Assembly (NCBI GenBank): GCA_947170225.1
Contig: CAMVSQ010000007.1
Location: forward strand, 1-49,292
Length of the DNA stretch: 49,292 nt
Direction of reading: 5' to 3'
Source of the DNA: an uncultured bacterium
Lineage (GTDB): Bacteria > Patescibacteriota > Gracilibacteria > Absconditabacterales > Absconditicoccaceae
Of the stretch, positions 11,695 to 29,267 are shown piece by piece; the stretch's first letter is position 1; the number at the start of each line of letters is the position of its first letter. The position numbers and the translations under genes were made by a program. The notes under the pieces are model-generated. The model saw nothing but the letters and a program-made list of their open reading frames with translations, made no database searches and was not told the origin of the DNA.

Positions 11695-11719
11695 TAAAAA
11701 AAATACCCATTAACGGTAT
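11695..11719 (-). terminator. Terminator after broken tRNA copy
   Basis: ATACC...GGTAT stem followed on the minus strand by a T run; a duplicated version of the terminator at 12042-12063 after the intact tRNA-Lys. Confidence 0.65.
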
Positions 11720-11730
11720 TTTCATAAATT

Positions 11731-11798
11731 TGGGCCAAGAGGGATTCGAACCCTCGACCACTCCCGCTTTAGCGGGGTTGCTCTAGCCAACTGAGCTA
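11731..11798 (-). pseudogene. Truncated tRNA-Lys-like copy (5' acceptor strand missing)
   Basis: From T8 (TAGCTCAGTTGG) to the discriminator base it is tRNA-like, and the T arm and 3' acceptor strand are identical to the intact tRNA-Lys at 12076. The 5' acceptor strand is replaced by the end of the GIY-YIG gene. The anticodon arm contains the palindrome CCCGCTAAAGCGGG, which cannot form a normal 7-base loop with U33. Confidence 0.8.
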
Positions 11799-12020
11799 TA
11801 TATATCTTTCGATATGTCATGATCTTTTTATTTCCCTTTCCAACGAAATTGCCTGTGTTTTACTTTCACATTCTATGAATTTTACCAACTCTCGTTCTCA
11901 TATTTCTCTTGTTGTTTTTGTTGTTCATTTCTTATGTTCTCTCAGTCTCTTTTCTAAGTCGCCTGTATATCAAACATAATACCTTTTTCATTTCAATATA
12001 TACACTCACCATTTTTCCAT
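11796..12020 (-). CDS. Small GIY-YIG nuclease (YhbQ/UPF0213-like)
   Basis: 74-aa single-domain GIY-YIG protein. The motif VYILKGKRYYVGYTGDLEKR is at residues 6-25, with the catalytic Tyr residues and Arg, followed by LREHKKG; the conserved Glu is in SLEREIKR at about residue 63. Five glycines are UGA. Enzymes of this fold cut DNA; many are homing or mobile-element nucleases. Its UAG stop is formed by bases T8-A9-G10 of a broken tRNA-Lys copy, and an intact tRNA-Lys with terminator lies 55 bp upstream in the same direction. The context suggests a mobile unit that targets tRNA-Lys. Activity is inferred. Confidence 0.85.
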
Positions 12021-12041
12021 TTCTATATTTTTATTTTAAAT

Positions 12042-12063
12042 AAAAATACCAATTAACTGGTAT
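12042..12063 (-). terminator. Terminator of tRNA-Lys
   Basis: ATACCAGTTAATTGGTAT hairpin then TTTTTA on the minus strand, 12 bp past the tRNA. Confidence 0.75.
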
Positions 12064-12075
12064 CTTTTATAAACT

Positions 12076-12148
12076 TGGGCCAAGAGGGATTCGAACCCTC
12101 GACCACTGCCTTAAAAGGGCATTGCTCTACCAACTGAGCTATTGGCCC
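12076..12148 (-). tRNA. tRNA-Lys (UUU)
   Basis: 73 nt. Acceptor GGGCCAA/TTGGCCC, D arm GCTCAGTTGGTAGAGC, anticodon loop CTTTTAA, T arm GAGGG-TTCGAAT-CCCTC, discriminator A, no encoded CCA. It is the only intact tRNA of the local triplication. Confidence 0.95.
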
Positions 12149-12178
12149 ATACATCCCAATATGGATTACTCACCTACT

Positions 12179-12234
12179 GAACCCTCGACCACTCCCGCTT
12201 TAGCGGGGTTGCCTACCAACTGAGCTATTGGCCC
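12179..12234 (-). pseudogene. Truncated tRNA-Lys-like copy (3' end missing)
   Basis: Begins with the intact 5' acceptor strand GGGCCAA and D arm, carries the same CCCGCTAAAGCGGG anticodon-arm replacement as the copy at 11731, and breaks off in the T loop (GAGGGTTC then unrelated sequence). The D arm has lost two bases (GTAGGC for GTAGAGC). Confidence 0.78.
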
Positions 12235-12285: not shown

Positions 12286-12474
12286 TTAAATAAATCAACG
12301 CATTTTTTTATAAATTTTTGAATCTACTCTAACTCTAATTTTTCTACCATCTTCCATCATCACCCATTTATAAACCAAATTTGGTTTAAATGTCCTCCTA
12401 GTAGCTCTCATACTATGAGATCTATTATTTCCAGATCTTGTTCATTTACCTGTAAAATCACATATTCTTGGCAT
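12286..12474 (-). CDS. rpmB: Large ribosomal subunit protein bL28
   Basis: 62 aa. MPRICDFTGKGTRSGNNRSH is the standard bL28 opening, followed by SMRATRRTFKPNL. One Gly in KGTRSG and one near the end (KKMRGFI) are UGA; in standard code the gene would be cut. It sits last in a leftward cluster with bL25 and bL19. Confidence 0.95.
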
Positions 12475-15422: not shown

Positions 15423-16472
15423 TTACTGTTTCACTACTTTTTGGACAAAAACATTTTCGCCATCAAATAGTCTCAATGAGAAGACACCACACGGAAGTTC
15501 TGAAATATCTACAGACTCCACCATGGCATCAATTTTTTTTACAAAACCGACAGCTGAAAACACTTCTACTGTACATGGCTTTGACAGATTTAGTATCCCA
15601 CTAGTTGGATTTGGATAGATTGCAAAGTCTGATTCTTCATCATTTTCTTCTACTCCAACCCCAGACAGTCGCACATAAATCTTGTTTTCCGCTACTTCTT
15701 GGCAGCCATACTGAGTAGTGTAAATATAGTAAATCGTATGCCATCCTACTCCAGCTACCGCCGGATCAAATGTGTTTCCATTTACTACTCCATCACCACG
15801 ATAATAGCCTCCAGATGGTCGCCCACCCGAAAGTACAAACGGAGATGAAATTTCGGACACTTCTTCAGGTATCCATAGCGAAACTTGTGGCACTTCATAC
15901 ACAGATATATTTCTGTGTGCAGAATAAGTCTGTCCATTGTAAAGCAAAAAAGCCTCCAACAAATGACTACCTGCTCCTGCCAAATGCGGATAAAACACAT
16001 TGTTTACCACACCAGCACCCTCAAACCACATTTGTCCACTTACATTTGCCAAAACGCAAGACTCCAAATTGACTGGATCCGCATTTTTACACACACTTGG
16101 TGGCGAAAAAGTCATTTGGACATGCTCCGGAGTTCCACCAGTATTTACCGTCACAGTGACAAAACGGTGATCGTCCAAAATGATACCATTTCCAAAACGA
16201 TTTTTTACCACACAAAGTTCATAAGTGGTGGTAAAAGACGGACTCACCGTAAAGTAGCACGGCGAATTAGCGATTCCATACTCATGATGATAATACATAC
16301 CATCAAAGTAAGAAAAATCCACTGGTCCTTCTCCATTAAATCTAAATTCAATGGTTGCAGAACCACCAGGATTGATAGTTTGATTACCGCCATAAAATCC
16401 AGCGGTAAGTTGGGCATGACTTGCTGTCATCGACATCCAGCCGACAATCAGCAAAAGAATCAATTTTTTCAT
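15423..16472 (-). CDS. Secreted protein with Bacteroidetes type IX C-terminal sorting domain, UGA-free
   Basis: 349 aa. Signal peptide (MKKLILLLIVGWMSMTASHA), then repeated beta-sandwich-like segments with Cys pairs and the SPSFTTTYELCV type of motif, and a C-terminal domain of about 70 residues starting IYPNPTSGILNLS and ending FSLRLFDGENVFVQKVVKQ. That is the Por-secretion tail (TIGR04183) recognised by the type IX secretion system found only in Bacteroidetes. All of about 36 glycines are GGN; UGA is absent, unlike all flanking genes. A monoderm CPR cell has no type IX system, so the tail probably does not work here. Horizontal transfer from a Bacteroidetes host or prey is the simplest reading. 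Promoter and terminator are its own. Confidence 0.88.
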   Translation of the reverse strand: MKKLILLLIVGWMSMTASHAQLTAGFYGGNQTINPGGSATIEFRFNGEGPVDFSYFDGMYYHHEYGIANSPCYFTVSPSFTTTYELCVVKNRFGNGIILDDHRFVTVTVNTGGTPEHVQMTFSPPSVCKNADPVNLESCVLANVSGQMWFEGAGVVNNVFYPHLAGAGSHLLEAFLLYNGQTYSAHRNISVYEVPQVSLWIPEEVSEISSPFVLSGGRPSGGYYRGDGVVNGNTFDPAVAGVGWHTIYYIYTTQYGCQEVAENKIYVRLSGVGVEENDEESDFAIYPNPTSGILNLSKPCTVEVFSAVGFVKKIDAMVESVDISELPCGVFSLRLFDGENVFVQKVVKQ

Positions 16473-16600: not shown

Positions 16601-19600
16601 TTATCTCCTATATACCTCCAGACTCTCTGTAAAGATCTCTGCTCATGGAGGCAAAGTTTTCCACAAATCTGGGCTATACTCAATCAGTACTGCTGCTCAT
16701 TCTATTATTTTCTGTCTTCTTTGTCTCAAAACTGCTTGTGTTGAAGTATTTGTCACAGTAAACCGAGAATTTAGTTGAGATCTCCTAGAATTCATCACAT
16801 TTTCAATTCCATCTCAAATCAAAACTCATTTTACATGCAATCATCCCCATGCACATCGATATTCGTTTTCATCTGTATTTCTCAGTAATTCACCAGCGTT
16901 AAATCAACTCAAAGCTACATATATTCACTGTACCACTTGTCATCATTTTACACAGCGTTTTTTTGAATCTTCTCATGCATCTTTAAACGACATTTTCTTA
17001 TCTGTCACTACCATTGCATATTGCAAAACATTTCATTCAATTTCTACATCCATTCATTCCACTACGATAGTATACGCAGATGTGAAATTTTGGATATTTT
17101 CTTGTTTTAGTACCAGTGTTCCCTTTCACTTTATGAAATAAATTGATTGATTTGGTACTTTTTTTACTTGTGTTATATTGCTTCCAAAAATAGCTTTCAA
17201 AGTTTTTCCATTTATCTTGAAATCAGTTTTTAGTTCGACGGCCAATTTTTCATATTTGTTTTTAAATTCATCAAATTTTGATTTTACATCAGTCTCTACT
17301 GCATAGTCATTGTTGTCAATATTTATAGTACTAGACAGGTCAGTTTTGTCCAAAAGCTGTTTACCAGCCATATCCAAAAAGTCGTCCAAGAATTTTTTAT
17401 TGTTTGTAGCTATAGGATTGACTCCAAATGTACTAATTTGCATCATATAAGGTCTAGTGATAGCAAAATCTACTTCACACACCGCACCAAATCTCTCTCA
17501 CTTTTTCCAACTTCAGTCATTTGTGTCACAGTATTTGTATTCTACCTTTTCCAGTACCAATTTATATTCTCCATATTCTTGCATTCCATTTCCATCAGTC
17601 AGTGCATTTATTGAACTAATATTTGCACCATCAGATGTAGTACGATGACTATCTTTAAAATAATCATAAATTTTATAGTCATCAAAATTTGTATTAAAAC
17701 ACTCTTGTTTAAATGTTTGGATTGCTTGTTCTCATTGTGTGTGTGTTCCATTGTAAACTCCAAAATAACACATCATCTTGTCATCTTCATCATCCAGTAG
17801 CAGAGTTCTTCATTCATAACCTTTTCTACAAGCTCATTCATCCACTACTCTTTGTGTATCACTTATCCACAACCTTCGCCAAAATGGCATAATTTCATTA
17901 TTCATCACAGAAATAGGCGTATCTGTGTACAGACATTGTGCAGGTTCATAAACAAAATTTCCATTTTTGATTATTTTACAGTTTTTACATATATCTCATT
18001 TATATTTATCTGATGAAATTCTAGGAGCTACATCATTTAGCCAATTACCGATAGTATACGGTCTTCCTCGAGACAAAAAGCTAAAATCACATTCTTCTCC
18101 ATCTTCAATTATTCCATTTCCACATACTCCATAAAATCCATAACCTAAACCAATTTTTTTCTTACATGCAGGATTTGTAGTAGTCTCTCCATCAATATAA
18201 CAAGCTACAGTATAATTATTGCTCAATTGCTCATCATAAGTATAATTACATGTATAAGCAAAGCTAGAAGCGTTTTGAGTTTCACCTATCCTTCCATTTC
18301 CACAGTCAATTTTGATAGAATTTGCTACATATCCATTGGATGTTTTACATGTAAATCTCATTTTTCATTTATCATTTTCATCTAATTCCACTATAGATCA
18401 TGGAGATGATATAGATTCACATTTGTAATCTTGCTCTCCATAGTGAACCACTGCATCATCACATATTTTTCCACATCACGATTCAGAGCAATATTCTATA
18501 CATGCTGTATTTACTATAGTATCTGTCACGATACTCATACAATTATTTGCACAGTGCTGTCATGGCAATAATCATTCCGAACTTGCTGTATCACATACTT
18601 CATTTTGTGTAATCAAACCATCTCCACAACTCAAAGGCTCGTTGATAGTCACTGATGTAGAAATTGTTTGCGAATCTCCATACACAAATCTAATATTTGG
18701 CGATATTGTTTGGAAATTTTTTGGTCAAACAACTTTGGTAAATCTATATGTTGTAGGTCTTCATGGCACCAAAGAAACTTCTTGAAAATATCGATTTTCA
18801 TTTCCATGAGAAACCACTAAATTTCAGTTTTGTACTATATTTCCACTATTTATTAGTGTAATTTCTAATTTCACTTCATCACCTGAAACTGCTCTAATTT
18901 TTGTAGCAGAATCATTCATTTCTGGTCTAGTCAAATTTGTCACCACACTAGACATACTTCACGAAAAATATGAATTAATTTTTCCAGTCAATACGGCTAC
19001 ATCATCTGTAGTAGTCAGTTGCTCATCTACAGTAGATATAGTTGATTTAAAAGTAAATTCAGTACCAGCAGGACTATTTGTCGCCATATGTCATGTAATT
19101 ACAAGTGTTCAATTTGCTCATACATTTAATTTGTCCAAATTCCACTTATATGTATTGGCAGAAACTTGTGTAAATCATGTCAATGATGTAGTATCCATCA
19201 CCATAATATTTGGCAGATCTACTACCACAGAAGCATCATTTGCCACATCTTGTCCATTGTTTCCATAAGATATTTTGTAAATCATTGCATCTCCATTAAA
19301 ACTAGGATCTACTGACAATTTTTGTGCAGAAATATGTACATTTGGAAATCATAAAACCGTTCATGAAGCCAAAGAATTATCATTTCATGTAAAAAATTGG
19401 TTTCAATCCATCACTATAAACGCAGAATTTACAAATTCTGTCCCCACTGGAAATAAAGTGTCCATTGTACCAGATATTTTCAATACCATTTCTTGTCCTG
19501 GATTTATATTTCAAATAGCAAATTCATACTGATTTGAAATTCCATTGTAAATATATGGTATTACTTGCGTTCAGTTCAATATTCAGTAGTTTGAAAACGT

Positions 19601-20149
19601 CAAAACATTACTTGGCCACACATCTATCACTTTCACATTTTCAGCTCTAGCAGAACCCACATTTTTTACCAAAATTTCAAACAAAACAGTGTCTCATGTC
19701 ACTTTGGGACTAGGTCCAGACATAATTTTTTTTATCTCTACATCAGAAATTGGGTTTACTACTCATGTAGCTACTCCACTATCTCATTCAATCAGTTTAG
19801 CAATCACAGTCAATGGCAAAAATTCTTGAGCAACTTCTCTTGTGGTCACCACCGCTTGAAATGTTGTTCATGAATTTATCAACCAATATGGTTGCTCTCC
19901 ATTTTGTACTTGCAAAAGATTGCGTGGAGGTATCGTAGCAGACACAAATTTCAATTCTTCTGGCAATTCAAATTGAATTTTTGAATTTTGACTAACCGCT
20001 CCAGAAATAGATATACTAAATTCTACATCACTTCACGATATAGCATACTGTTCGCTCGGAGTCAAATTTATCAAAATCTCATCTGCGGTAGCAAAAGCAG
20101 TCCCAAATGCTGTAAACAAAATTCATAATATAGTAAATAATTTTTTCAT
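16601..20149 (-). CDS. Large secreted DUF11/Cys-rich protein
   Basis: 1182 aa, continuous only with UGA = Gly. Signal peptide MKKLFTILGILFTAFGTAFA; then DUF11-like beta domains typical of surface stalks (SGPSPKVTGDTVLFEILVKN, later ENVKVIDVWPSNV). From about residue 510, repeats of the form CGDGLITQNEVCD and CGNGIIEDGEECD (DUF4215-like, Cys-rich) with many further cysteines. The C-terminal 400 residues are mixed alpha/beta, rich in Lys, with no membrane anchor. It is the third gene of an operon (31-bp gap). A role as an exported adhesin or contact protein is inferred. Confidence 0.88.
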
Positions 20150-20180
20150 CTTTTCTTTATTTTAGAGCTAAATATTTTTT

Positions 20181-23100
20181 TTATCTTACAATTCATGTAG
20201 CCACAATTCTACCACTCTTTCATGGTAATAAAGGAGTACTAAAACGCCATTTGATTGTAGTTCCATTGGCAGTATTTGTTATATCACTGGCACTAGGATT
20301 TGCAGACACAAACTGTATCATTGCTGGCCAATAATCTACTATAGTATAATTTGTCAGCGGTACATTTCCATTGTTTGTATAAACTATAGTATATGTCACA
20401 GTTTCCCCATGAGACACATATTCTTTGTCCACAGTCTTTGTGATAGAAAGTTTCAACTCAGGACTAGCAATCACCTGAAATGGATAGTCGTCATACAATT
20501 CATGAGTAGATCCTCATTCTACATAGGTCAATTTTCCAGTATTTACATAAGGTCAAACACAAGCAGGATTGTTTGCCACATGAGCAAAAATTTTGAAACT
20601 AAATGATTGTCCAGCCGCCAAAACTCAATTATTGAGGTTTGGATCCACATTTATTCAAAAATTATTGTTATTTACATTTGTCTTTTCTCATTCTGAAGTT
20701 GATCATCTAGCATTTGTTCAGTTTGCAGAATTTCAAGCACTTCATACATAACGCCAACGAAGGTGTGAAACTTCTTGGACTGTAGTTCCTGTCCATCCAT
20801 CATAGATGATACAAGTCTCGTTATCTGGCCAAATATCATCTACATAAATATTTGAAATAGGATTTGGCCCACGATTTGTCACAGAAATAGTAAATTCCAA
20901 TCCAGTTTCTCATGGATACATAGTTGTTTTGTTTCCAGTTTTGTCAAAAACTACTGTAGATGCTGTTGATTGTGGTCTAATAGCCAAAACTTGACTAGAC
21001 AATGTATTTCATCATACAAACTTGAAATATCATGTATTTAGATACGATGTAGTATTACTACAATTTAATCAGACCACTCATCATGATTTTATTTCTGCCA
21101 CTACCAGCATATATCCACCTTGTCATGGATTTAATTTAAAATCTTTGTAAAGTACTCTATCCATTCATCACTGCTGCATTCATGTTATAGGTCAACTATA
21201 CGAAACTCCACTTGGCAAATGTATGCTCGATGATACATATTTGACACACGGTGGCAAAACATCTCGTACCTGTCATGTAGCAGCTACTGTACCAGAATTT
21301 CAGAAACTTACTTTGTAAGTTATCTGATTTCATGGCTGTACTGTGATTGTATTTGTAGTAAAACCTATATTTCCATATTTCTGCTCTTTCAAAATATATG
21401 GCACTGGATTTCCAGATATTATAGCACAATCATTTGCCCCAGATGTAAATGCACAGTTTGTCAATTCATTAAATGAAAATCCATCTCTCAATCTTCCTGT
21501 CAGATAGACAATGGCTGTCTGATTTGGATTTAGATTAAAATTGTAATATTTGAAATTATACTGTCCATGTGTATCTGTCCATCCAGTAAACAAATAGTTT
21601 GCCACTCACTGGATACTACTAGATACATATTGCAAAGCTCTTGGCATAGTATCCAAAATATAAGCATTAGTAGCTACTCCAGATCAAATATTTTTCAGAG
21701 TAATTTTGTAAGATACTAAATCTCATGCCACCAAATTTCCAGCGGACAAAAGCTCTTTTGTGATTGTCAATTTCGGATTTTGTGGTGCCTGAGGCCTTAC
21801 AGCCACAACCTGACTAGACAATGTATTTCATCATACAAATTTGAAATATCATGTATTTGTATATGAATATACATTTTGACAGCTAATCATTCAATTCATT
21901 CCTGTTCATCTAACTTGTGCTTGAACCAACATATATCCTCATTGTCCTGGATTTAGTCTGAAATTAGAGTATTTTACCATCGTCTGATTTCAAGCATTCA
22001 CTGGTCATACTGTAGGTCAGTTATATGATACACCATTTGGCAGATGTATACTTGATGAAATATAATTTACACATGGTGGCAATATATCCCAAACCTCTCA
22101 TGTTGCGGCCACAGTTCCTGAATTTCCAAAATTTACCTTATATGTTATCTGTTCTCATATTTGTACATTTATTTGGTTTGAAGTGAAGTTTGCCATACCT
22201 CATGTTTTTTGTTGTTTTAATAAGTATGGTACTGGAGATCAAGGCTTTGTAGTTATTACACTAGCTGTACAGTATGCAGTAGGTTTTGTTCAGTTTGTTT
22301 GCCCGTTGTAGTTATTTTGTACTGTCAATGTCAAATTAAATGCTCATACTGTAGTATATGTATGATTCAAAGTAAATACAGGATTACTTTGATTTTGTCC
22401 ATCCCCAAATGCTAAATTTGTATATTTAGCCCAATTTGGTTTTGTTCAATTTATTGTCGTATTTAGCGGAATTGTTCATTGGTTTGGATTTACTGTCAAT
22501 GTACAGCTTGGTGTCATAAGTTGACAGTTTGAATTACATCAATTTCCAAAATTTCCACTTCCTGGATCACATTGTTCATTACTTTGTAATATTCCATCTC
22601 AACAATAAGGTGTTGGAGGTGGTGTCGTTGTAATTACATTAATGCTACAATAAGCCACTGGTCTAATAGCTCATGTCCTTATTGGAGTAATGATATTTCT
22701 GACTGTTCATGTCAAATAAAATGTTCATACTGTACTATATGTATGATTTTGTGGAAATGATACTGGATCCCATCCATTTCATATATTTTGTCCATCTCCA
22801 AAATTTAAATTAGTAATTCTTGCCCACCATCAGTTGGTAGTTCAATTGATAGAAGTAGTCAATGGAATATTTCATTGATTTGGATTAGCTGTCAATGTAC
22901 AGTTTGGTGTCATCAATTTACAATTACTATTACATCCATTCCCAAAATTTCCACTTCCTGGATCACAGTCCTCACTTGCCAGATTTATTATTCAGTCTCC
23001 ACAGTAGGGTGCAGGAGTATTTGGTACTAACTGACATGAAGCATTACAAGTATATCCAGAAGGGATACTTGACGCCAAATTTGGATCACATTGCTCATAA

Positions 23101-23795
23101 GTTGTATTTAATATTCAATCTCAACATCGACGGATAACATTTTTCTGACACTCTACTATAGCTCTATTATTACTTGTCGTATTCAAATTATTATCACTGT
23201 CATATAATGTTATTGTTCTAAATTCAGCATCTCAATATCAATTTCATCAAATAGCTGTTGGTGTATTTGGATGTGTTCAGTTTGACCTATAATTAGGTAT
23301 AGTAAATGATGTATTATACGGAGCTCAACCATTTGCTATATATGGTGTATCAAAAAGCCAATTTTCCGCAAAAATTGCTCAATTAACCTCTTCTGCAGTT
23401 GTTATATGTCTAACTGTTTGTCATGTATTTACTTTCCAATTTATACTCTGCAAATAATCTCTATTAAAAATAACAAATCAATTTCCAGCAGTTCAACCAT
23501 TAGAATTATTATATAGCAAATAATTTCACCTTGTCAGTATTTTATAATTCCATATATACAATGGTCAAGGGTTAGAACTTGGATTTGTAAAATTATCTAA
23601 ATATATTCCATATTTTCAATTATACACCTCATTCCAAACAACCTCATCACAACTTTGTGAAAATCGATAAGAATCAGGTTTACTATTCCATTCTGATTGC
23701 GATATTCATATAACTTCAGCATTAGAAAATCATATCACCGATATTAAAGCCACGATGCATCAGAATAAATAAGAAATAATTTTTTTTATTTTCAT
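20181..23795 (-). CDS. Large secreted PKD/DUF11/Cys-rich protein
   Basis: 1204 aa. Signal peptide ([20 protein letters not shown]). Three Cys-rich units ([16 protein letters not shown] and relatives, each ending in GNGCNSNC) alternate with two PKD-like domains (LNFGDGQN, then NHTYSTVGTF). From about residue 570 there are at least four DUF11-like domains with the internal-repeat signature [20 protein letters not shown] and [20 protein letters not shown]. The last domain ends [20 protein letters not shown]. The design is a long extracellular stalk. Middle gene of the operon; gap to each neighbour is about 30 bp. No LPXTG or terminal helix is seen, so how it stays on the surface is unclear. Confidence 0.88.
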
Positions 23796-23825
23796 TGCCG
23801 TAAATATAAATTAAATAAATAATAT

Positions 23826-26800
23826 CTAAGGTCTTCAACCTCCTCAATTACCAGTATTGGATCAACCACTTCACGATCATCATCAGACACCTCATCACTG
23901 TCATGTATTTCATCAACCAGTTCATGTTCACTCTCAAGTAGTTCATTCTTGATTTGTTTGACCTCAGTATCATGAATCTTCAGAACCTTCTATTTTTCCA
24001 CCCAAAATATTTACCTTAGCACTTACATCATTTTGATTCAATGATTCTGTCTTTGTCAGAGTCTGTCCATCTACTCAAACTTCTAATACATTATCTTCTG
24101 GATTATCTGGATTATCTGGATTGTCGTTTCCTGGTTTATTAGCTATTGTAAGTTTTCACAATTGTACTCATACAGATTCATTAGCACATTCTCACAATAG
24201 ATAAAATACGTATCTCGTTTCTATTTTAACTTTTTTACCAAAAATGTCAATATTTTTTCATTGTAATAAATCATACAATTGTGCATCTGTTATCTCTACA
24301 TCTGTACCAATTTGTTCTTTAATTCTTTCTCATATTGATTTTTTCAAAATATTTCTATGAATTTCTGTTTTCTCTAAATTCTTTTTAAACCATTCTTTTG
24401 TGGTTTCTAAACGAGATTCTTCAATATCATAAAGAATACCAAGATAATCTGTTGCTCAAATTCTTGTCATAGAATATCAGTAAGCTTGATCTAATTGCTG
24501 TCTTACTAATATATTATCTGTAGAGCTGACATGTCCACGTTTATAAAAAGCTGTCATACCAACTAGATTTGCATCTGTAATTCTATCTACCTTACCATCT
24601 CAAATTTGATTTAATAGTTTTGCCCTATAAGATTCACCTTCTAATGGGAATTTGATAGATTTATCGTATCACATCAATGTCTCATAATTTGTTCATCTCT
24701 TTTTTGCTAGGTTTTCAAGTCATTTTTTAGAATCTGTTCAGTTTACCAAAGAGAATATCATCTTAAATCTATCTACTACGAAAACTTTTTCATTTATATC
24801 GCTGACACCATTTACATAATTTTTGATACTTTGTAATTTTTGGTCTGTTGATGCGTCCAACATTTTTTGTATTTTTTTGAATGCATCAATATAATCAGAT
24901 TCATTTACAATATCTTCATCAAGATCACAGGTAGCTTCCATAAATTCTACATATGATATCCATTTTCCATTATCAAGTTTTTCTAATGATTTCTCAAATT
25001 GCTTAAATGGATCTTCTGTTTGTCAGAACCAATTCTCTACGTTATATTCGTGAGTTTCTTGTGTGGTTTCTGTTGTTGTGCTAGGTACAAACTCAAATCA
25101 AGGTACATTTTCAAGATGTCATGCTGAATTATATTCTGAGATTGTTTCACCATTTATTTTATTATTTCCACATCCATCAATTCATTTTCATCAAATTCAT
25201 CAAATCATAAGATATACAGCAAAATCATCAAAATATCTTCTTGTAGCTACAGAGAAGTTTTCTAAATTATTTCATCCCATAGTAAGAGTTTTTCCATCTT
25301 CACTGATAGCGACATTATTTTTCTTATCAGGATTTACATAAATATTAAATAATTCATAAATATTCTTTTTACCATATTTTTGTAATACAGCATCTGTCAC
25401 AGATATTTCAATTTGATTTTTATTATTTGATTTTACTTCTATGTTTGGAATTGAATTTTCAGATAAAGATTGAGCAATAGCATTTTTCATATTTTCAATA
25501 TTATTTGTCTTGATTCATTCACCAATAGGTTTTATTGATTCTCAACTCTTTAATTGAGCATCCATATAATTGTATTTTTCTTTATCTGGTAAATAAATCA
25601 TATTCCATGCAGACAAAGTCGCTTCCAATCATACCGACCATCCAGCACCAAATGCTCATTTAAAATCTCATTGGAATAATTTTTTTGCATCAAAACCTAC
25701 TCAAGCTTGTCCAAATATTCATAATCTCGTTAATTTAGTTCTTCCATCCAATTCTCAGAGATTTTGATTTTTCACTTCTTCTACAATTCCTTTCATGATA
25801 GAGTCTAATAATATTTTTTTATGCTCAGGTTTTTTATCTGGACCAAAAGCTCACATCACATCCAATAAATTTGAAACATTCTCCACACAATTATCCATTT
25901 CTTGTTTGTTGTTTTTCATAAACTTTCTCAAGTTTTTATTTTCTTTATCTGTTCAATTTAAAATATCTTCTATTGATTTTTTTGCTTTTTCTTTGAAGTT
26001 TTCCTTAGTAGTAAAATCTGGATCTTTAAATATTCCATTTTGCAATACATTTCCAAAATTTCTTGCATTTAATTCTATTCATTTTTTGTAATCAGCTTTC
26101 CATCATAATGCTCATTCTATAGCTGCTGAAAAGTATGCTGAGAATTTTTCGTCAGTTTTTCATCCTACTACAATTCATCATCCCACATTTGCTCACAATC
26201 TAGTATAAAGCTGATGAACTGGATTTGCACCATGTATTACAGAATTTTCTACAGCTCTATGATTTAAATCAAAATTAGCTGTCAAATTTGCAATAGGTAT
26301 ATCCAAATGGAAACCTAAACCTCCTTGTAATGGACCAATCAAAGCAATTCTTGGTCAAATTCATGCATCATCTTTGAAAAAATTAAAATCAATATCTACC
26401 GCATCCAAATTATCTACAGTCACTCAAGTCTTGCTATTTATTCAAAATGTTTTTACAATTGTAGGCAAAATTCATCATTCATCCAACCATACTGCCATAT
26501 TTCAAACAAAATTCTTTTGTTCTTGTGCCGACAAAGCTTTAAACCATTTATCAAATTCTTCATTTTTTCATAATTGTGATTCAAATCGATTATTTACTTC
26601 ATCTCTATTTGTAATTAGTTCTTTTATTTCTTGGATTCCTCTGTCTACTATAGACTTTCTCCTGCTATCAGATACCAAATCCTGTATATCCATACTAGAA
26701 TTGTATGATAAACTATTTATTGTTTGCTGGTACAATACCAAAGTTTCTCTATGAGTTACAATGTATTCTCACAATTTATTCATAGTGTACTCTCAATTAA

Positions 26801-29267
26801 ACTCTCTTTCAATATCATTATAACGATCTTCTCATACAGTTTTCATCAATGAAACAAATCATTTTACCAAATCTGCAGTTTTTGGTCAATCAATAATTAC
26901 TTTATAAGATTGTACATTTTCTCTTTTTTCTGTCAAAACATCAGTATTTGCTAATGATACAAATACATCATACATGGCTTGTTCACTTGTCCTTCAATGA
27001 TGTTTTATTCATTTTTCTCATGTATCAACAGTTCAGTCTTTACCAAAATCTGACAAAATCAAAAATGGATTTTTTTTGATTTTTTCTTTATTCATTTCTA
27101 CAAACTTTTTTGTCTTTTGTAATTCTCTAATATCATTAAATACTTTCATTTCATTTATAAATTGTTGCAATTTACCTCTTTCTACATTATTTAATATTTT
27201 TACAAGATTATTTTTTTCATTTACAAATAATTTTTTATTTCTACCAAGCTGTTTCATAGCTTCATTTGAAATATGCTTTCTTTCAAATTTAGTGACTTCT
27301 GGGTTTTCGGACAAAACTTGTGCCAAAGTATTTGCAATACTATTTGGATTGATTTCCAATCTCTGAAATGCTTGTATTAAATTATTATTTTCTTTTCAGT
27401 CCATATAATCAATCAGTGCATCATAATTTGAATCTACAACTTCAGCTGGTACTTCTCAATATTTGTTGTTTTCTAAATTTTTGTATTCGTTTTTTGATTC
27501 TTTCTCTGTTTTTTTCTCTTGTTCTTCCTCTTCAGAAACTGAAGTTCAACTTGTCTCAGTAGAGTTTACTTGCAAACTAGGGTTATCTCCTAAGTTTGGA
27601 TAAATTTCAGGATCTCCTGTAAATTTACTTGATTCTGTATTTAAAGTCAAAAATCAATCTTTTTTTTCATGGTCTCACAGTATTAAATCGTTTGTTTTTT
27701 CATTTTTAATCAATCATATTTTTATATCTGCTGGCAATATAAAAATTTCTTCATTTTGGCTATCTACTTGAGTTTTTATATATTGTTTTAAACTAGGATC
27801 ATATAAAACATTCATAGATTCATTATTTCACAAAGATTTTGGGATATGTAAATAATATTTACCATCACCATTTGTTCTTACGAAGATCTCGCTATTTATA
27901 CCAAGTATTTTCAGTTCATCATTTAAAATTTGTTCAATTTTTTGATAATCTGAATAGTTTTCTTTTTTTTCATTAACAACAGTAATACTAGGTTCTGTTT
28001 CCTTTTTTCCAATCAATAAATTACAAATATTATCGGTTATATCTTTATACTCTTTCTCACCTATTTTTACATACCAATTTCCATCTTCCTTTACCAATTT
28101 TCCTCATGAAAAACTTACATATTTACACTCACCATCTTTAAATGCGGTCAAACTTGCTACATCAAGCCCTGTTAATCAGTTTAAAAATATTCCATCTCCT
28201 CATCCAAATTTTGCCAACGCTGTAGCAACGTCGCTAGTCAAATTTTCCAATTTTGGCAAATTTATAGCTTTAGCTTTGGCTTTATTTTTTTGCTCAACAA
28301 GTTGTTGTGCTTCCTCTACCGTTAAATTTTCTTTTTGTTCAAGATTTTTATCATCTCAAGCCGATTCTATCCTTACAGTGGTTGGCTTGCTACCAGTTTT
28401 TTTTTCTATTTTTTCTCATTTCACTTGAGTGTCTGATCAGTTATTATTTCCTTGATTTGAAACTATTGTTGGATTTTGAGTTGTCTTTGAATTTTCTGTT
28501 ACATTTGTTTCATTTGTTTGTTCTGCTGGTGTTACTTGTTCTCATGCTTTTTTGTTGTTTGTAATATAATTATTTAATGCATTGAATGTTTCGCTTCCCA
28601 TTAGTCAATCTGTTCAAAAACCAGATAAGGCTCATTCTTTGTTTCATCACTTTCAGGGGATATAATTTTCCTTTTTTCAAATTAATAAATATTGTATTTT
28701 TCTAATATCTTCTTTTTTTCAGCTATTTAAACAGTCTACTATATAATCTCTTTCTGTAAAATTAGTCGTTCTAATTGTATTTAGTAAATTTTGTAGCTCC
28801 TCTTTTTTTACCTGACTTTTTATCAATCATTCAATTATAATGCTTTCATTTAAATTTTTTAAATTTGCTTGTTCCTCAATATAGTGTCCTTGTGATATTT
28901 CCTCTGTTGTAGCACTTCATTCTCTTTGTTCCTGAATTGTTTGCTGTAAGTTTCAAAGTTCAATTGTAAAGTTTAATGATTTTAATGCTTCTTCAATGTT
29001 ATTATTATTCGTTTTTATTTCTTTAATTTTTTCAGTATCTAAAATTCTTTTTACATCATTATCTAACCAATTATTAAAATCTATTTCCGTCTTTGATCAT
29101 TCACTATTTAGAAATTCTTGAAAAGATGATTCAACTTTATTGTTGATAGCAGTTTCTGTTTCTTCAGAAAGAATATATTCGTTTCACTCTTTTTTTTCAA
29201 AAACTCCTTTTTCTAGCATCTCTCCCTTTGTTAAATCTTTTACATAGTTTTTTCATTCTACAGCCAT
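23826..29267 (-). CDS. Giant 1813-aa protein of unknown function
   Basis: One continuous frame of 1814 codons with UGA = Gly. It opens without a signal peptide (MAVEGKNYVKDLTKGEMLEK), then a Glu/Asn-rich helical region. Residues ~180-235 resemble a peptidoglycan-binding fold (DIRKIQYLLIG, then FGTDGLMGSETFNALNNYI). A low-complexity T/N/Q/E linker, a helical central part, and about residues 950-1070 with alternating polar/non-polar strands (LGANVGGGIVVGG, FSAYFSAAIEGALG) follow; a similar strand block recurs at about 1175-1225 (GAGWSVGLEATLSAW). The last 60 residues are nearly all Gly, Ser and Thr, mostly encoded by UGA. First gene of the operon. Possibly a secreted effector or cell-envelope protein; the family is not recognised. 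Confidence 0.85.

Follow-up and report, generated by a model that had tools for sequence, protein, structure and literature searches.

Roughly two thirds of the genomes sampled from the Patescibacteria-like phylum of this bacterium have matches to a family of small GIY-YIG nucleases, whose genes mostly lie beside a tRNA gene. The sequence comparisons reported here make it probable that these are free-standing, homing-type selfish genes that invade tRNA genes and, in a few cases, structured RNA genes of other kinds. Single-copy tRNA genes are expected to be among the worst landing places for a selfish gene. The arrangement suggests a widespread selfish gene that inhabits essential RNA genes yet does not destroy them. 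This would be a natural case of "break the gene, leave a working copy" and would explain many tRNA fragments in these genomes. It may also link mobile GC palindromes with small GIY-YIG enzymes whose role is unknown.

One such locus lies in the window, the whole 49,292-nt stretch of DNA that was analysed, which is contig C7 of a 0.95-Mb genome (G000) that reads TGA as glycine (translation table 25). Downstream of the bL28 gene, the minus strand carries a truncated tRNA-Lys copy (R1), the intact tRNA-Lys(UUU), a terminator, a 74-aa GIY-YIG gene, a second truncated copy (R2) and a second terminator (Table 1). The initial annotation had placed the unit at 11731-12234, had given this order of elements and had identified the nuclease stop codon, here the TAG at 11798-11796, with T8-A9-G10 of R2, all of which hold at this locus. 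R1 and R2 have a 34-nt exact repeat in common, and in both copies CCCCGCTAAAGCGGGA stands exactly where the anticodon stem-loop TGCCCTTTTAAGGCA would be. The window contains the palindrome core CCGCTNNAGCGG twice, whereas none of 100 shuffles contains it. R2 and its terminator repeat the 3' half of the intact tRNA (93%) and its terminator (83%), and R2 scores 28.6 bits, slightly under the Rfam cut-off. tRNA-Lys(UUU) is single-copy among the 39 tRNAs found in this genome. The exact 23-nt pattern of the palindromic tRNA copy gave no matches in the genome and viral collections.

Table 1. Features of the tRNA-Lys/GIY-YIG locus in the window. Positions are those of the forward strand.
Feature	Coordinates	Strand	Basis
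R1, 3'-truncated tRNA-Lys copy, tRNA positions 1 to ~57, palindrome in place of the anticodon arm	12179..12234	-	sequence, repeats
Palindrome CCCGCTAAAGCGGG within R1	12194..12207	.	
Intact tRNA-Lys(UUU), sole copy found in the genome	12076..12148	-	ARAGORN; Rfam 75.3 bits
Terminator-like hairpin and T run 3' of the intact tRNA, repeated 3' of R2	12030..12063	-	sequence read; direct repeat D4
GIY-YIG nuclease gene, 74 aa, table 25 (TGA=Gly)	11796..12020	-	PF01541; family conservation of active-site Y, YxG, R, H, E
R2, tRNA-Lys copy truncated at the 5' end (positions 8-73 kept), with palindrome; the nuclease stop codon is its T8-A9-G10	11731..11798	-	
Palindrome CCCGCTAAAGCGGG within R2	11763..11776	.	
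Terminator-like hairpin and T run 3' of R2	11695..11722	-	sequence read; direct repeat D4
Ribosomal protein bL28 gene, syntenic anchor for the empty-site search, outside the element	12286..12474	-	

Several familiar arrangements were considered for this locus and rejected. A group I intron in the tRNA was discarded because the Rfam scan of the window returned tRNAs only, with no group I intron match, and the tRNA is intact. A tRNA-integrating element with a tyrosine integrase was discarded because the GIY-YIG gene is the sole ORF between the tRNA copies and broken copies lie on both sides of the tRNA. Finally, the broken copies do not carry a suppressor or recoded anticodon, because the arm in question is a palindrome without an anticodon loop.

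The window ORF matches PF01541 (E=4.2e-12) and contains six in-frame TGA glycine codons. Residues Y7, Y15, G17, R25, H29 and E61 are invariant across 19 relatives, and the PF01541 domain with conserved Y, YxG, R and E places the protein in the GIY-YIG nuclease superfamily. Its AlphaFold model (pLDDT 83) has a GIY-YIG fold nearest to UvrC and UPF0213; Foldseek with this model gave a best TM of 0.70, to UvrC/UPF0213-like structures, and no match at E≤0.001. Sequence matches in the PDB include, distantly, the structure-specific nuclease SLX1. The dN/dS of the nuclease is 0.09-0.48, which reflects purifying selection. The invariant active-site residues and these ratios indicate that the protein is maintained as functional, and DNA cutting by it is predicted. 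Phage proteins searched with this protein gave no match at E≤1e-3, a pattern and tblastn search of viral contigs found no relative, and the PHROG search returned a single weak match, to a PHROG of unknown function.

Of the 380 genomes drawn from the phylum, 261 were matched by a profile of these proteins, and a single genome had as many as 14 matches. After the first protein search, 34 of 45 placed loci had a same-strand tRNA within 400 nt. The best 30 profile hits, five of which overlap that 45-locus sample, had one within 300 nt in 23 cases; two of the remaining seven adjoin a tRNA that the automated count missed because of the contig end, one is near a tmRNA and two lie inside RNase P RNA genes. 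For a further 40 hits, a same-strand tRNA or tmRNA was present within 300 nt at 30. The proximity to tRNAs expected from tRNA density is 1-2%. Host tRNAs cover nearly every isotype, and a few loci lie in or beside RNase P RNA or tmRNA genes. At L172 and L274 the GIY-YIG gene is ~100-150 nt downstream of the tmRNA gene, and at L172 it is followed by an apparent short fragment of the tmRNA 3' end.

GIY proteins of the first search that are not adjacent to an RNA gene fall almost entirely into a separate UPF0213-like clade, and the RNA-adjacency label changes twice on the GIY tree compared to 9.2 times in shuffles. Mapping tRNA isotype onto the tree required 16 changes (shuffled mean 21.6, minimum 19 of 300), and isotype-linked GIY clades are common to families with genetic codes 11 and 25. 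A tight-alignment search for related loci returned Peribacteria, Peregrinibacteria, Gracilibacteria and SR1 genomes; the window's own family includes an SR1 (Absconditabacteria) MAG (locus L230, a contig of G040). Partial copies of the same tRNA were found near approximately 30 of 34 GIY-adjacent tRNAs. Matches were found for 15 of 43 GIY-free tRNAs, but mostly to other intact tRNAs; once these were set aside by eye, true partial copies were present at approximately four, two of which are among the relic sites described below.

We compared the bL28/tRNA-Lys site in 30 relatives of the window's family whose loci were read, and tRNA-Lys(UUU) follows bL28 in all 30. Empty sites with one intact tRNA-Lys, which the initial annotation had proposed to look for, were found in 20 relatives, where the lone tRNA has no palindromic copy nearby. 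Seven relatives carry a GIY-YIG gene, and all seven have palindrome-bearing partial copies; the gene is after the intact tRNA in G000, G046, G040 and G045 and before it in G014, G047 and G033. Partial copies are present with no GIY-YIG gene at the site in the remaining three (G001, G031 and G007). GIY-YIG genes and partial copies co-occur at this site (Fisher p=6e-5), and this presence and absence at an orthologous site, with empty alleles, is as expected of a free-standing homing endonuclease gene. Neither empty sites lacking any tRNA nor a GIY-YIG family that is always fixed and without flanking tRNA copies, the two observations that the initial annotation had set against its own proposal, was encountered.

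The GIY-YIG proteins at the bL28/tRNA-Lys site do not form one clade (AU test p=0.006), and the G045 protein clusters with tRNA-His-associated proteins from other genera; therefore, the site has been invaded at least twice. More than one clade at a single site and the isotype-linked clades indicate repeated invasion or horizontal spread. Together with the empty sites, the single-copy tRNA and the wide recurrence of the arrangement, these results support the original proposal that a mobile unit sits at tRNA-Lys and spares one intact tRNA. The tRNA-Arg(UCG) gene marks a second orthologous site, where loci read by eye have the GIY-YIG gene in G043, G040 and G033 and apparently only a palindrome-bearing remnant in G000.

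The window's own genome has palindrome-bearing partial copies, with no GIY-YIG gene, near tRNA-Leu(CAA) (L234, contig C18) and tRNA-Arg(UCG) (L235, contig C3); these copies are probably relics. In G001, from the window's genus, locus L133 on contig C55 contains three identical 80-bp tandem broken tRNA-Lys copies with no nuclease gene, together with two 3' fragments that bear palindromes.

The initial annotation had also supposed that the element brings a foreign replacement tRNA with it, and this part was not supported. In every genome, broken copies match their own tRNA at 0.90-1.00, sharing lineage-specific sequence with the intact copy, and another genome's tRNA was never a better match, with ties in G045 and G047. 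In G045, the tRNA 3' half and ~75 nt of terminator form near-perfect direct repeats on either side of the nuclease gene, which differ mainly by a palindrome in the T-loop and look like local duplication. That the intact tRNA is of host type argues that it was restored by local duplication and not imported. Local duplication, or homogenisation after invasion, is a simpler reading than foreign import, and the intact and broken copies are too alike to reveal transfer of tRNA sequence. A duplicated part of the host gene flanks the ORF, as in fungal mORFs, and the foreign, diverged carried copy of those systems is absent.

Two layouts recur across loci. One consists of R1 (sometimes), the intact tRNA, the GIY-YIG gene and R2; the other of R1, the GIY-YIG gene, the intact tRNA and sometimes then R2. 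In both, the truncated end of the broken copy faces the nuclease gene. Insertion at the boundary of the acceptor and D arms, as first proposed, describes one of the two junctions but not the roughly half of loci at which the gene follows a 5'-half copy and precedes the intact tRNA. Many of the genes extend at their 3' end into a tRNA, either R2 or the intact one (L067, L021 and L014), and their stop codon is supplied by this tRNA sequence or by a palindrome loop (L225 and L226). The T8A9G10 stop, for which a search had been suggested at the outset, recurs in L021 and L067 but is not general; elsewhere the stop lies in the D-loop, in a palindrome or before the tRNA. Tandem units of tRNA and GIY-YIG gene are present at L229 and L232, and at L176 the tRNA is flanked by GIY genes on both sides. 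The T-loop, where R1 ends and which the motif preferred by the phage enzyme SegB resembles, was considered as a fixed site of cutting and rejected because R1 ends range from ~46 to 64.

We propose that the nuclease would break DNA in or near a tRNA gene, and that recombinational repair would then insert the nuclease gene and duplicate part of the tRNA locus. The expected outcome is one intact tRNA and truncated copies with their broken ends toward the nuclease gene. Because the host would keep a working single-copy tRNA, the insertion would be tolerated. The broken copies could then diverge freely, and their hairpin arms may come to be replaced by short palindromes that are scattered through these genomes; subsequent loss of the nuclease gene would leave the copies behind, as may have occurred in G001, G031 and G007. 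The empty, occupied and relic states, repeated invasion, isotype-linked clades, purifying selection and a host-type intact tRNA all favour homing. A classical homing gene interrupts its own target, but occupied loci retain an intact tRNA together with its native 3' flank, most clearly in G045, and the broken copies are altered. Moreover, because the gene follows the intact tRNA in one layout and precedes it in the other, one simple insertion event is insufficient for all loci. It also counts against homing that G001 has tandem copies with no GIY gene at the site, and that the model does not require palindromes.

The palindromes in both broken copies, like the other RNA-gene hosts, were overlooked in the initial annotation. 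Nearly all broken copies have a GC palindrome of 12-20 nt that replaces an arm or lies within one. In Lys, Gly and Glu copies, and in some of the Arg and Met copies, it takes the place of approximately positions 27-43, whereas it lies in the D-loop of Leu copies and in the anticodon loop of tRNA-Arg(UCG) copies; its position, coded by hand, depends on isotype (permutation p=1e-4). Palindromes of the same kinds are dispersed in the genomes, with 15 in G000 compared to one for the reversed-pattern control, and 118 compared to none in G001. The dispersed GC palindromes of these two genomes are of the CCCGCTTTAGCGGG and CCCGCAATACTGCGGG types, and several lie at the tips of REP-like GTCATTTCGA...GAGAAATC hairpins. 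Palindromes are more numerous in genomes with a GIY-YIG hit (median 14 compared to 2 in the family, and 25 compared to 4 elsewhere in the class; genus-stratified p=0.017).

These palindromes raise another possibility, that the GIY-YIG enzyme acts on hairpin or cruciform DNA and moves palindromes into the hairpin tips of RNA genes, by a logic like that of REP/RAYT. Short GC palindromes would be the non-autonomous form and palindrome stems with a GIY gene the autonomous one, with tRNA arms, RNase P loops and REP-like repeats as landing sites. At L183 (G185; 980-1880), the GIY gene lies in a hairpin loop of RNase P RNA, apparently P3, between perfect 20-bp inverted repeats, and arms matching at 95% enclose a short GIY-less insert in another helix of the same RNase P RNA gene. 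The GIY gene of L184 (1440-1800) lies in what is apparently the same loop, between 16-nt arms that are 94% complementary. The L183 arrangement makes this system a serious rival, and it could also account for palindromes that replace the anticodon, D or T arms in nearly all broken copies at isotype-dependent positions, for their dispersal, in several cases into REP-like hairpin tips, for their greater number in genomes with GIY-YIG genes and for the distant resemblance to SLX1. At tRNA loci, however, the gene lies beside palindrome-bearing copies and not in a palindrome loop, which is why we do not adopt this as the main reading, and palindromes are also present in genomes without a match to this GIY query (G003, G018 and G031). 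We know of no mechanism by which the palindromes would move. Overall, we regard such a system as unlikely to be the correct account of these sequences.

Much less likely still is that the main role of the nuclease is to amplify tRNA segments in tandem for the benefit of the cell, for example against tRNA-cutting defences or toxins, and not to spread itself. Such a dosage tool has a precedent in SegB (PMC13096335) and would be compatible with the tandem identical 80-bp copies in G001 and the further tandem copies at L009, L019, L225 and L229. The amplified copies, however, have no anticodon arm, are missing one strand of the acceptor stem and cannot be tRNAs, and exactly one intact tRNA is kept at most loci. 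tRNA pseudogenes and duplications are common, but ordinary duplication and decay near an unrelated GIY-YIG gene, or assembly error, is scarcely credible given that the locus surveys already contradict it: the association greatly exceeds background and is not shared by the sister GIY clade, the broken copies are young yet have palindromes at fixed positions, and many independent assemblies show the arrangement, with some of the loci on long contigs.

Homing into tRNA genes remains our preferred reading. A broader proposal, which we advance tentatively and consider unlikely, is that hairpin tips in structured RNA genes are the target of a mobile element of a new class in this phylum, with the GIY-YIG protein as its enzyme. 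Gene-carrying palindrome stems would be autonomous, solo 14-20 nt palindromes would be non-autonomous, and forced local duplication in tRNA genes would spare one functional tRNA.

Elsewhere in the window, a 349-aa ORF (15423-16472, minus strand) has no TGA codon, whereas neighbouring genes use TGA for glycine. Its C-terminus resembles a type IX secretion sorting domain, so the ORF may have been acquired recently from Bacteroidota. The interval 16601-29267 (minus strand) holds three very large ORFs side by side, of 1182, 1204 and 1813 aa, the first two with repeat-rich, surface-protein-like sequence.

The open-access literature searched contained no description that we could find of the triad of tRNA, GIY-YIG gene and broken copies, or of its scale in this phylum. 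The parts are of known kinds, namely GIY-YIG homing genes, mORFs with duplicated gene ends and REP-like palindromes, and their combination at tRNA genes is apparently undescribed. Phage SegB, also a GIY-YIG enzyme, cuts within tRNA genes and brings about the amplification of tRNA-segB units; the tandem repeats arise when the 5' end of the tRNA recombines with the 3' end of segB, and the reverse complement of its motif, RAWTSGAAC, fits the T-loop consensus (PMC13096335). SegB provides an experimental precedent for the proposed cutting and recombination at tRNA genes. Like SegB and related free-standing GIY-YIG nucleases of T-even phages, the genes described here lie next to tRNA genes. In contrast to SegB, the nuclease family described here is chromosomal, comprises proteins of 74-110 aa, has no phage relative found with this protein and no homology to phage SegB-type proteins at E≤1e-3, and is accompanied by truncated copies of the same tRNA with palindromes; there is one gene per tRNA locus, whereas SegB is one gene in a tRNA array.

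The dispersed short palindromes at hairpin tips resemble REP palindromes with RAYT and the mobile GC-rich hairpins of mitochondrial DNA. Unlike REP/RAYT, no Y1 transposase was identified at these loci, and the link between palindromes and GIY-YIG is correlative. Mitochondrial mORFs with duplicated C-termini are found in Allomyces atp6, Rhizopus atp9 and Glomus, and in these fungal cases the intact gene part and the displaced native fragment differ (PMC3630166). As with the mORFs, which include a GIY-YIG gene in Glomus atp9, a free-standing endonuclease gene lies beside an intact gene and a displaced native fragment (PMC3630166). Here, however, the target is a tRNA gene, the restored part is of host type and not a diverged import, palindromes are present, and the 5' side is also affected. 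In rRNA genes of CPR bacteria, GIY-YIG genes occur in non-intron insertions, mostly at the tops or bases of stem-loops, and are reported as sparse and outside a homing context (PMC11270868). The loci described here likewise combine CPR bacteria with GIY-YIG genes, but they lie at tRNA genes, are abundant and carry duplicated fragments of the genes they accompany.
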